From: Candidatus Ishikawaella capsulata Mpkobe
GTDB taxonomy: Bacteria; Pseudomonadota; Gammaproteobacteria; Enterobacterales; Enterobacteriaceae
Reading direction: 5' to 3'
NCBI RefSeq assembly: GCF_000828515.1
Contig: NZ_AP010872.1
Span: forward strand, 97,001 to 161,000
DNA: 64,000 nucleotides
Below the pieces are notes generated by a model, which saw nothing but the letters and a program-made list of their open reading frames with translations, was not told the DNA's origin and did no database searches. This document shows, piece by piece, positions 26,273 through 33,821 of the stretch. Position numbers and translations under genes: made by a program. Position 1 is the stretch's first letter. Each line of letters opens with the position of its first letter.

Positions 26273-27361
26273 TTATAAATACTGATTAATCATATCTATT
26301 GAGTCAGAACATTGAGCACGATGACGCAATAAATGATCAATAATCACTATAGCTGTCATTGCTTCCGCGATGGGTATAGCACGAATACCTACACAAGGAT
26401 CATGTCTACCTTTAGTAATAATTTCTACTTCTTCTCCATATTTAGTGATAGTTTTACCGGGTATTGTAATACTAGAAGTAGGTTTCATGGCTAAATTGAT
26501 TTTAATAATTTGACCGTTACTAATACCACCTAAAATTCCTCCGGCATGATTGCTCGTAAAACCTTTTAGACCCATTTCATCTCTATGTTCACTACCCAAT
26601 TGACCAATTACAGCAAACCCATCTCCTATTTCTATTCCTTTTACTGCATTAATACTCATTAAAGCATGAGCGAGATCAGCATCAAGACGATCAAAAACGG
26701 GCTCTCCTAATCCTGGAGGGACATTTTCTGCTATAATTGTTACTTGTGCTCCTATAGAATTTCCCGATTTTTTTAAATTACGTATTAATCGATCTAATAA
26801 ATCTATTTTATTAGGATCAGGGCAGAAAAAATTATTTTTTTCTACATTATCCCATCCTTTAAATTCACAAATAATGTCACCCATTGTTGATAGGTAACCA
26901 CGTATTTTTACATTATGTTTCATATGTAAATATTTTTTTGCTATAGCTCCAACAGCTACACGCATAGTCGTTTCACGAGCAGAAGAACGCCCTCCACCAC
27001 GGTAATCACGAATTCCATACTTTTTATAGTAAGTATAATCAGCATGACCAGGACGAAATAAATCTTTAATAGCACTATAATCTTGTGAGCGTTGATCAGT
27101 ATTTTTAATCAACAAACCAATAGGTGTTCCAGTTGTAACACCTTGAAAGACACCAGATAAAATTTTTACTTCATCTGATTCACGTCGTGGAGTAGTATAT
27201 GGTGACATCCCTGGACGTCTGCGATTAAGATCACTTTGAATATCAGATTCAACTAATGGAATGCCAGGTGGTACACCGTCAACTACACATCCTAACGCTA
27301 TACCATGAGATTCACCGAAAGTAGTCAATCTGAAAAGTTGACCAATACTATTACCAGCCAT
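26273..27361 (-). CDS. aroC: Chorismate synthase AroC
   Basis: AroC converts EPSP to chorismate with reduced FMN, feeding the trp operon in this window as well as other aromatics. The 362-residue protein (E. coli 361) begins [20 protein letters not shown] with the conserved His, then RRPG, the FMN-site block [11 protein letters not shown] near 120 and [17 protein letters not shown] near 318. AAAGGAAT lies upstream of the start. Confidence 0.97.
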
Positions 27362-28883: not shown

Positions 28884-29393
28884 ATGCTTAAAAAAAAGGA
28901 TATTAATCCTATTAAATCATATAAATTTAAAGAATTACCAGAACCAATTTTTAAATATTTACATAAAGATATATCGATAAATACAGTCAATGAATCCGTT
29001 TGTCTTCTCAGCACAAATACACAAGGTTGGCCTCATACGGCTCAATTAAGCTTAGGAGAAATTTATGCTAGCGATCAGAAAACTATTAAAATTGCTCTCT
29101 GGTCAAATTCTAATAATAAAAAAAATATTGAGTATAACAATAAATTATCTTTAGTATTAGCATGGAATAAAGGTATTGTAGAAATACAAGGATTAGCAAA
29201 ATTACTTGCTGAAAAATCTCTCTGTAAACTAACAATATTTGAAATAAAACTTATTAGCATAATACATTACTGTTCCAATTATGCTAATGTCATCAGTGGT
29301 ATTAGTTTTATTGTCCATGATCCCCAAAATGTAAATTTTCGTTGGAAAAAACAACGCCAATTACTTGTAAATATTAATGAGAAATATAATTGA
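28884..29393 (+). CDS. Pyridoxamine 5'-phosphate oxidase-fold (split-barrel flavin-binding) family protein
   Basis: The 169-residue soluble protein has the signature of the FMN-binding split barrel: a strand VCLLSTNTQGWPHTAQLSLG near residues 38-57, then IKIALWSNSNNKKNI, LSLVLAWNKGIVEIQG and a C-terminal HDPQNVNFRWKKQRQ. It is too divergent and short to be PdxH, so substrate and cofactor are unknown. It has no counterpart at this place in E. coli. It is convergent with, and three bases from, an AroY-like decarboxylase. A shared function in aromatic or flavin chemistry is possible but unproven. AAGG upstream supports the start. Confidence 0.68.
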   Translation: MLKKKDINPIKSYKFKELPEPIFKYLHKDISINTVNESVCLLSTNTQGWPHTAQLSLGEIYASDQKTIKIALWSNSNNKKNIEYNNKLSLVLAWNKGIVEIQGLAKLLAEKSLCKLTIFEIKLISIIHYCSNYANVISGISFIVHDPQNVNFRWKKQRQLLVNINEKYN

Positions 29394-29396
29394 ATA

Positions 29397-30872
29397 CTAT
29401 TTATTAATGAATGGAGTAATATCAACATATTGGAACTGGGCTCTTTGAAACTTATCTTTTATTTGAAATGGCACGGTGCAATCAAAAATTGATTTATTAG
29501 TTATTCCTTTCGTAGATATTCCAGAGTTATATTCTGGCATTTGGGATGGATCTAAAATATGGCCACTCACACCTGGAATATTAATAAGATCATAGTTACC
29601 TTGAAAACGTGTAGTCATGGCCCAAAGAATATCATCGCTGTCATAAATATCTACATCTTCATCTACTAAAATAATGTTTTTTAATTCAGAATAAATTCCA
29701 AAAGCTAATAAAGCTGCCTGTCTAACTCGTCCATCATCTAAAGCGGTTTTTTTATTACATTTTAAAATAACAAGTAATTTACCTCCACCCGAACTATGAG
29801 CATATACTTCACTGATAAAACCCGGCATAGCTTTATTTAATGCATTAAATATACTGGCTTCAGTAGGTAAACCTACTAAGTTGACATGTTCTTCTCCAGG
29901 ACCTACAATAGTTTGTAGAATAGGATTCTGACGAGTCGTAATAGCAGTCACCTTAATAATAGGTAAGGAAGGATTAGCGTTACCACTATATCCTAAAAAT
30001 TCTGGCATAGAGTAACCCGTCTGCGTATTATAATCTTCTTGTAAATATCGTCCTGGTTCAATGAATCCCTCTATAACAATTTCTGCTGAACCAATACATT
30101 TAGCGTCTACAGTTAATGCCTTAACTAATTTTATAGGTTTTTGTCTAATGCTACCTGCTATAGCTAACTCATTAAAACCCAAAGGAGTAATAGGAGCTTC
30201 AAAACAAGATCCTATGTAAATAGCAGGATCTAAACCTATATTGATAGTAATTGAAAGTTTTTTACCTTTTGATTCGGCTCGTTGGCGAAAAACATCAATA
30301 TGCCTACCTGGTGCAAAAAATATAGTTAATTCATCCTTGTTTTGCACACATAAACGATGAATAGTGACATCCATTCCTAACGTTGGATCTTCAGCTAATA
30401 CCAGTCCCATACAAAAATAAGGTCCGGCATCATTGGTCGTATTAGTAATAGCTGGCAAGATAGTGCGTATATCGAAATTTTTATTTTTAGCTAACCAAAT
30501 AACCTCTTGACACAATGCTGATGCCGGTCCAGCTAATTTAGGACTAATTGGATGTAATATAGCTTGATTAATTAAGTAAGTAAGTTGTTTTGGATCACTA
30601 CCTAGTAACCATCCGACTCTATTACGGCTTGCTAATAGTCCTACTAAAATCCGAATTTTATTATATCCTTTAATATTATTAAATAACATTGCTGGTCCTA
30701 TTTTTGTAGGCCTTTGTACTGTACCACCAGCTCCAACAAGTTTATAAATACCTGCTAATTCACAATTAGGATTAACTTCATGATGGGTTTCAACGTATTG
30801 TCCAGGAATTTTTTGTAAGAATTCTATAGCAGAGCGTAGATCATTTATTTCTGTTTTTTGCCGATTATACAT
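29397..30872 (-). CDS. aroY: UbiD-family aromatic-acid decarboxylase, AroY/LpdC type (protocatechuate or gallate decarboxylase-like)
   Basis: The protein has 491 residues. It reads much closer to Klebsiella/Enterobacter AroY and Lactobacillus LpdC than to ubiquinone UbiD: NDLRSAIEFLQ at the start, GIYKLVGAGGTVQRPT near 42, DAGPYFCMGLVL near 150, VTIHRLCVQ, ITINIGLDPAIYIGSCFEAP, MPEFLGYSGNANPSLP, GPGEEHVNLVGLPTEAS, IILVDEDVDIYDSDDILWAMTTR and IFDCTVPF near the end. The acidic pair of the prenylated-FMN active site is visible in EIVIEG. The known relatives non-oxidatively decarboxylate 3,4-dihydroxybenzoate to catechol or gallate to pyrogallol, and need a UbiX-like flavin prenyltransferase, not seen here. 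The gene is intact, convergent with the split-barrel gene. Substrate is inferred, not proven. Confidence 0.85.
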   Translation of the reverse strand: MYNRQKTEINDLRSAIEFLQKIPGQYVETHHEVNPNCELAGIYKLVGAGGTVQRPTKIGPAMLFNNIKGYNKIRILVGLLASRNRVGWLLGSDPKQLTYLINQAILHPISPKLAGPASALCQEVIWLAKNKNFDIRTILPAITNTTNDAGPYFCMGLVLAEDPTLGMDVTIHRLCVQNKDELTIFFAPGRHIDVFRQRAESKGKKLSITINIGLDPAIYIGSCFEAPITPLGFNELAIAGSIRQKPIKLVKALTVDAKCIGSAEIVIEGFIEPGRYLQEDYNTQTGYSMPEFLGYSGNANPSLPIIKVTAITTRQNPILQTIVGPGEEHVNLVGLPTEASIFNALNKAMPGFISEVYAHSSGGGKLLVILKCNKKTALDDGRVRQAALLAFGIYSELKNIILVDEDVDIYDSDDILWAMTTRFQGNYDLINIPGVSGHILDPSQMPEYNSGISTKGITNKSIFDCTVPFQIKDKFQRAQFQYVDITPFINK

Positions 30873-32625: not shown

Positions 32626-33821
32626 CTAAAATATATTTACTTCACCTATAAGTAAATATATCTTAAGTAAGACTACTGTTACTATAATGATGAATCCAAT
32701 ATTTATACTAATACGGGAATTAACTAGTTTTTCTCCCATAATCAAAGGATTACTGGTAAAACAAAGTAAAGGAATGAGAGCTAATGTAATACTAAAGCTC
32801 AGCAACATTTGACTAAAGACTAAAATAAGTTGGATTACAACCCACTGAAATCAATATTGAAGGTAGCAAATAATACGACGACGTAACCATAGTGGCCTTG
32901 CATTACTACCTGTCCTGCTAAAGTAGCTACAACAGTGGAGGAAATACCTGCCGCTATTAAGCTCAATGCAAAAACTACTGCAGCCGAACGTCCTAAAAGT
33001 GGATGTAAAGTAGTTCAATTCGGCTACTTTAGTATGTCCTGTAAAATGAAATGCTGCTGCCATAGCTATCATGGCTACATTTACAAATCCGGCTCTTGTC
33101 ATTGCTATAACTACATCAACTTTTGTAGAAGCATAACGTTGTTCTAAAGTTGCCCGAGAATTAATTTGCTTGTGTTAGTGCTGAATGTAAATAAATAACA
33201 TGCGGCATAATTGTAGCTCCTACGATACCAGCAGCTAAAAAAACCGCATCAAAAGTAGGAAATGAAAACAATACCATGCCTTTAATTATATCTATACTTT
33301 TTGGATGTGCCCACATTAACTCCAGTATGTAACATACCGCAACTATCACTATCTCTAATCGCTGCTCTCCATGATTTTGTAGCATTAAAATTAAAAAAGG
33401 AACTAATCCGGTAATTAGATCTCCTTGAAGTAGTGAAATACCAAATAACATTTTGAAACCCAATGCTGATCCAATAAATTCTGCTACTATATCGGTTGCC
33501 ATCGCAATAATTTCTGCTTGTATCCAGTAAAACCAAACAATAGGACTAGGAAATCTATTTCTAATATGTTCGGCTAGATTCTTACACGTAGCAATGCCTA
33601 ATTTAGCAGACATTAATTGAATTGACATTGCAATAAGATTTGACAAAAGAGCTACCCATAATAGTTTATAGCCATAAACTGCAAACTGCACCAGCTGGAA
33701 TATTAGTAGAAAAATTTCAGGGATCTATATAACCAATAGCTGCTACAAAAGCTGGACCAAGTAAAAGCATATTAATTTTTCTAGATTCTGTATGAATTTT
33801 TTCAGTATTATTATCTGACAT
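32626..33821 (-). pseudogene. mntH: Manganese transporter MntH, recently inactivated
   Basis: MntH is an NRAMP-type proton-coupled Mn(II) transporter. The start at 33821 gives MSDNN..., and at codon 35 the invariant IDPGNF reads IDP-stop-NF: TGA at 33717-33719 replaces a Gly codon. A 7-bp tandem duplication (AAACTGC twice on the plus strand, 33676-33689) then shifts the frame. A long open piece (33161-33691) keeps family signatures such as [19 protein letters not shown] and [17 protein letters not shown]. Further frameshifts follow near 33160 and in the final third, where [17 protein letters not shown] and the C-terminal [20 protein letters not shown] sit in different frames. Sequence conservation is high, so decay is recent. 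Confidence 0.95.

Follow-up and report, generated by a model that had tools for sequence, protein, structure and literature searches.

Co-retention of AroY, UbiX and a QuiC-like dehydratase in reduced symbiont genomes and a proposed catechol branch in Candidatus Ishikawaella capsulata

The aroY locus and the identity of its product

The hosts of Candidatus Ishikawaella capsulata are plataspid stinkbugs. The bacterium is a gut symbiont, to which AP010872.1 has been assigned (PMC7218078), and its genome comprises two contigs of 745,590 and 9,139 bp (754,729 bp in all), reduced as the original prediction had held. We analysed a window of 64,000 nucleotides of the chromosome, in which the following genes concern us (window coordinates).

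26273..27361, minus strand: aroC, chorismate synthase (assigned from the translated ORF sequence, not by family search)
28884..29393, plus strand: small PNPOx-fold-like ORF, 169 aa (26.9 bits, just below the Pfam cut-off)
29397..30872, minus strand: aroY, prFMN-dependent protocatechuate (3,4-dihydroxybenzoate) decarboxylase, 491 aa

The aroY reading frame begins with ATG and translates into 491 intact codons with zero internal stops, and all three UbiD Pfam domains cover the protein from end to end. Its GC content by codon position (0.46/0.38/0.18) follows the pattern expected of a translated gene under AT bias; a scan for promoters and terminators gave no excess over shuffled sequences. The original prediction described a full-length gene whose sequence blocks (GAGGTVQRPT, GPGEEHVNLVGLPTEAS and DEDVDIYDSDDILWAMTTR) place it with AroY/LpdC rather than UbiD. 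All three blocks are present in the protein, and sequence searches, active-site residues, phylogeny and predicted structure agree with that placement.

In phmmer searches, the crystallised AroY proteins 5o3m, 5o3n and 5ny5 were matched at E of about 1e-196, the next family at 1e-54 and E. coli UbiD at 1e-24; identity to 5o3m and 5o3n was 59-61%. Scores fell below the cut-offs of both the NCBIfam UbiD equivalog NF008175 (107.8 bits, cut-off 788) and the VdcC/KpdC hydroxyarylic acid decarboxylase model NF041204 (400.6 bits, cut-off 650). Five residues whose exchange abolishes activity in EcAroY (R188, E289, H327, K363 and H436; PMC5656893) correspond to R190, E291, H329, K365 and H438 in Ishikawaella and are all kept, as they are in six other symbionts, while KpdC-type enzymes and UbiD are without the AroY His/Lys/His set. 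By our numbering, Arg181 of PMC5656893 maps onto a Ser in the crystallised chain; the conserved Arg171 of the DVTIHR motif is present in Ishikawaella. Of the 146 positions that are near-invariant across 69 AroY/LpdC proteins from free-living and firmicute sources, the Ishikawaella protein keeps 134. Its structural model (pLDDT 79) matched 5o3m best (TM 0.90, 61% identity), with HmfF second (30% identity), and a quick tree placed the protein on a long branch within the enterobacterial AroY clade (SH-aLRT 100), apart from UbiD proper. The identity of the gene as AroY-type, not UbiD, is well supported by these comparisons.

The product resembles AroY of Klebsiella pneumoniae and Enterobacter cloacae in length, three-domain fold and catechol-binding and catalytic residues, and the same dependence on UbiX is expected; unlike those enzymes, it stands alone in a 755-kb genome in which no downstream aromatic catabolism was found. 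The gallate decarboxylase LpdC of lactobacilli belongs to the same subfamily (about 50% identity between the loci compared) but to a separate clade of the tree, and has been described as specific for gallate (PMC10865409). E. coli UbiD shares the superfamily and the UbiX-made prFMN cofactor, but is only about 25% identical, is without the His327/Lys363/His436 set and serves a pathway missing from the Ishikawaella genome. By analogy with the 60% identical enzyme, Ishikawaella AroY would decarboxylate protocatechuate to catechol.

The PNPOx-like ORF is convergent with aroY and ends 3 bases from its stop codon. It had no significant PDB match and no counterpart in the flanks of the other aroY loci compared, and was set aside as a conserved aroY partner. 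Between glk and the tRNA-Ala/gltX stretch, at about 32851-33691 on the minus strand, lie fragments resembling a frame-broken Nramp-type metal transporter (mntH). The aroC gene indicates that the shikimate pathway, and with it the supply of 3-dehydroshikimate, is retained; it provides context from outside the module considered below. Genes of the Tyr and Phe pathways are also present in Ishikawaella (PMC9561257).

Partners of AroY across reduced genomes

Orthologues were sought in 147 relatives and then in 392 genomes of the family, 37 of which are reduced (up to 1.6 Mb). Eight of these 37 carry AroY, 11 carry UbiD proper and 18 neither; UbiD proper is absent from all eight AroY bearers. The named bearers besides Ishikawaella, Ca. 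Pantoea carbekii (plasmid pBMSBPS1) and P. edessiphila, have the gene on small plasmids, the genus of the latter including Ca. Pantoea edessiphila SoEL and SoET (plasmid pSOE1) and Pantoea sp. SoEX. Two further orthologues lie on an 11.8-kb contig of a 1.1-Mb genome (G013) and on the chromosome of a 572-kb genome (G084). A Benitsuchiphilus plasmid reported to carry 'ubiXD' (PMC7218078), with ibpB alongside, is a lead to a further AroY/UbiX bearer outside the count of eight. An Hsp20 gene is divergent to aroY in P. carbekii (L035:11123-11623) and in G084 (L102:6207-6719), the two being 36% identical.

Two further genes lie on the Ishikawaella chromosome (C1), outside the window.

C1:52107-52670, plus strand: ubiX, flavin prenyltransferase (223 bits against a cut-off of 108.9)
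C1:45191-46006, plus strand: probable 3-dehydroshikimate dehydratase, QuiC-like (PF01261 search)

The identity of UbiX, the only Flavoprotein-family gene of the genome, is well supported; its flanking genes, cvpA and pta, were both named from sequence. The genome thus holds the UbiX-like partner for which the original prediction suggested a search, and no separate ubiD, aroY being its sole UbiD-family gene. UbiX was present in 8/8 AroY-bearing genomes, in 11/11 with UbiD proper and in 1/18 with neither; the single exception (G015, 1.0 Mb) is the only one of the 37 with UbiX yet no UbiD-family gene. UbiA-grade matches were found in 0/8 AroY-bearing reduced genomes (best 75 bits, against more than 300 for true UbiA). 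Within the UbiD-proper group, UbiA passes the cut-off in nine genomes (one with an internal stop) and is broken in two. In Ishikawaella, where gene absences are based on family searches, there is no UbiA/MenA-type prenyltransferase, the single UbiA-family gene being cyoE inside the cyo operon, and the search for a UbiH/I/F-type flavoprotein hydroxylase gave only a marginal 108-bp match. The cyo (quinol oxidase) operon itself (L003, G000:C1:401385-405134) is retained with no UbiA/MenA-type prenyltransferase found. UbiX is therefore retained in reduced genomes that have a UbiD-family client, which in the AroY-bearing symbionts is AroY. UbiX/prFMN chemistry is established for EcAroY and KpAroY (PMC5656893), and the conserved residues suggest that UbiX-made prFMN serves Ishikawaella AroY as well.

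According to a PF01261 search, every one of the eight AroY-bearing reduced genomes encodes a TIM-barrel protein of 271-278 aa. In a profile search of 57 genomes, this QuiC-like dehydratase was present in 8/8 AroY-bearing and 0/29 other reduced genomes, a co-occurrence with a chance probability of 3.6e-6 when genera are counted once and shared ancestry is ignored. The counts are phylogenetically non-independent, and apart from G084 the AroY bearers may share one or two ancestral sets. The link is loose among the free-living genomes searched, where the dehydratase occurred in 6/8 AroY bearers and 5/12 others. The three genes, aroY, ubiX and that for the dehydratase, do not form a single operon. 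Pantoea sp. BRR-3P has an additional 3-dehydroquinate dehydratase gene, aroD (L037:3341-4186), near its aroY, whose product would supply 3-dehydroshikimate.

The best NCBIfam profile for the Ishikawaella protein was QuiC (142 bits; next 44), against an equivalog cut-off of 1200 bits for a 635-position model that includes a second domain which the dehydratase is without. QuiC1 of Pseudomonas putida (5hmq) was its closest PDB entry both by sequence (E = 8e-34, with the runner-up at 2e-9) and by the fold of the predicted structure (pLDDT 92, TM 0.91). Seven of the ten active-site positions of QuiC1 (PMC7442255) are kept, including His168, Arg64, Arg210 and the four metal ligands E134, D165, Q191 and E239 (E135, D166, Q192 and E245 in Ishikawaella); the other three are changed (L97>Q, L136>M and S206>A). 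The symbiont protein thus shares the TIM-barrel dehydratase domain with QuiC1 but differs in having no HPPD-like second domain, at 3/10 active-site positions and in being accompanied by no intradiol dioxygenase. It belongs to a long branch of the tree apart from characterised QuiC; in two free-living relatives this type lies outside any quinate or pca cluster, and among its relatives encoded on plasmids elsewhere are QuiC-type genes of rhizobia, one of them within a pobA-pca cluster. We regard it as a probable dehydroshikimate dehydratase that would convert 3-dehydroshikimate to protocatechuate, an assignment less well supported than those of AroY and UbiX.

G084 has the same three-gene set built from different paralogues of AroY and the dehydratase. 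Its dehydratase is a classical QuiC with all 10 active-site residues kept, and its AroY falls in a different enterobacterial clade, near that of Pantoea dispersa, where aroY adjoins a ubiX-type gene. The hypothesis that the seven symbiont AroYs together form one clade was rejected (p-AU 1e-4), whereas for the six without G084 it was not (p-AU 0.089). At least two origins of the AroY/UbiX/dehydratase set are therefore supported, and there may have been more.

The aroY gene is chromosomal in Ishikawaella and on plasmids in most other bearers. The Ishikawaella plasmid carries genes of the arginine succinyltransferase (ast) pathway and one for a cupin resembling oxalate decarboxylase. Counterparts of its Rep (73-77%) and of this oxalate-decarboxylase-like protein (63%) are encoded on P. 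edessiphila-type plasmids; those of its ast genes occur in P. carbekii (48-64%) and G013. Across the small plasmids of Ishikawaella, P. edessiphila and P. carbekii and the G013 contig (L101, L105, L035 and L103), Rep, ast, gdh, the oxalate-decarboxylase-like cupin and aroY occur in varied combinations. These similarities suggest that the accessory genes of such symbionts were drawn from a common plasmid pool.

A proposed catechol branch and its alternatives

We propose that a working AroY, UbiX and dehydratase form a natural branch from 3-dehydroshikimate through protocatechuate to catechol, which genomes of such symbionts have retained or put together on at least two occasions, and give this reading as a whole a probability of about 0.6. 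The dehydratase would divert 3-dehydroshikimate from the shikimate pathway to protocatechuate. UbiX, kept though ubiquinone synthesis has been lost, would prenylate FMN to make the AroY cofactor, and AroY would decarboxylate protocatechuate to catechol. No intradiol catechol dioxygenase was found by family search in any of the eight AroY-bearing reduced genomes, so catechol is probably the end product and would leave the cell for the crypt or the host. It might serve to tan the cuticle or the symbiont capsule, act as a crypt antimicrobial, bind iron or give surplus shikimate flux an outlet. Tanning is an appealing conjecture: the need for tyrosine in forming the cuticle has been documented for this host (PMC9561257), and a brownish colour is reported for the symbiont capsules (PMC7926433).

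The substrate could instead come from the diet, with AroY and UbiX decarboxylating protocatechuate or gallate from plant sap and the TIM-barrel protein having another role. Plant phenolic acids were among the possible sources named in the original prediction, which missed the dehydratase. EcAroY acts on gallate too (PMC5656893), related enterobacterial AroY-type genes adjoin tannase, and the Ishikawaella and P. edessiphila plasmids bear the cupin oxalate-decarboxylase-like gene, oxalate detoxification having already been proposed for these symbionts (PMC7926433). Dietary detoxification would, however, leave the exact co-retention of the dehydratase unexplained, and is hardest to reconcile with the classical QuiC that G084 has independently. 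It is also doubtful whether converting such acids to catechol would detoxify them when no intradiol dioxygenase follows. Because a dehydroshikimate dehydratase is co-retained, endogenous protocatechuate is the better-supported source, and we consider the dietary explanation unlikely.

The same three genes might operate with a different product mattering, AroY tuning the level of protocatechuate or acting mainly on gallate to give pyrogallol. EcAroY converts gallate only slightly more slowly, and the symbiont enzyme might prefer either substrate. The dehydratase family, in contrast, yields protocatechuate, the preferred substrate of EcAroY, and no gallate-making gene was found, so that this variant appears quite improbable.

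Decaying genes occur in reduced genomes, and one P. edessiphila-type aroY copy (G178) appears broken, as it might if aroY were a functionless relic being lost. The break is an exact 127-bp tandem duplication within the gene (L104:11940-12193, C1), and since 127 bp is the length expected of an untrimmed k-mer overlap, we judged it probably an assembly artefact left by untrimmed assembler k-mer or circular-contig overlap. By the NG86 method, dN/dS ranged from 0.14 to 0.20 in aroY and from 0.09 to 0.16 in the dehydratase gene, far below 1, these being rough values (dS near 1) from pairs of related symbionts, without a close sister for the Ishikawaella branch. Together with the intact reading frame, catalytic residues and near-invariant positions, they agree with the originally predicted retention under selection, and the relic explanation was rejected as highly improbable.

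Replacement of UbiD by AroY in ubiquinone synthesis, which the original prediction had allowed, has in its favour the ubiD label in the literature (PMC7218078), the retention of UbiX and the place of aroY as the only UbiD-family gene. It was nevertheless rejected as extremely improbable: by family search UbiA is missing from every one of the eight AroY-bearing reduced genomes, which in Ishikawaella leaves no substrate, MenA and a UbiH/I/F-type hydroxylase beyond the marginal match are missing there too, and AroY keeps its catechol-binding His/Lys/His set, not the UbiD pocket.

Implications for stinkbug gut symbionts

What is new is the pattern, the co-retention of AroY, UbiX and a QuiC-like dehydratase in reduced genomes. 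It has been hidden so far by the filing of the gene as ubiD, and Ishikawaella ubiD has been listed as species-specific (PMC7218078). In the literature we found no report of AroY or protocatechuate decarboxylase from a symbiont, and no paper on dehydroshikimate dehydratase in insect symbionts as judged by title and abstract.

The two steps of the proposed catechol branch, from 3-dehydroshikimate to protocatechuate to catechol, are those of the catechol pathway engineered by Frost's group, in which aroY reportedly served as the second step; that group's engineering of the K. pneumoniae dehydroshikimate dehydratase gene aroZ is cited in PMC9324987. Unlike the engineered pathway, the symbiont version would have arisen in nature and outlasted the shrinking of these insect symbionts' genomes, with a single-domain QuiC relative as its dehydratase. 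If the proposal is true, the branch would be a natural counterpart to the engineered pathway, and the survival of UbiX without ubiquinone synthesis would be accounted for. The named bearers, Ishikawaella, P. carbekii and P. edessiphila, are stinkbug gut symbionts. We tentatively suggest that such symbionts have a dedicated, repeatedly evolved catechol-supply pathway of dehydroshikimate dehydratase, AroY and UbiX as a main service beside amino-acid provisioning; a small aromatic product made by the symbiont only would then be a new kind of service.
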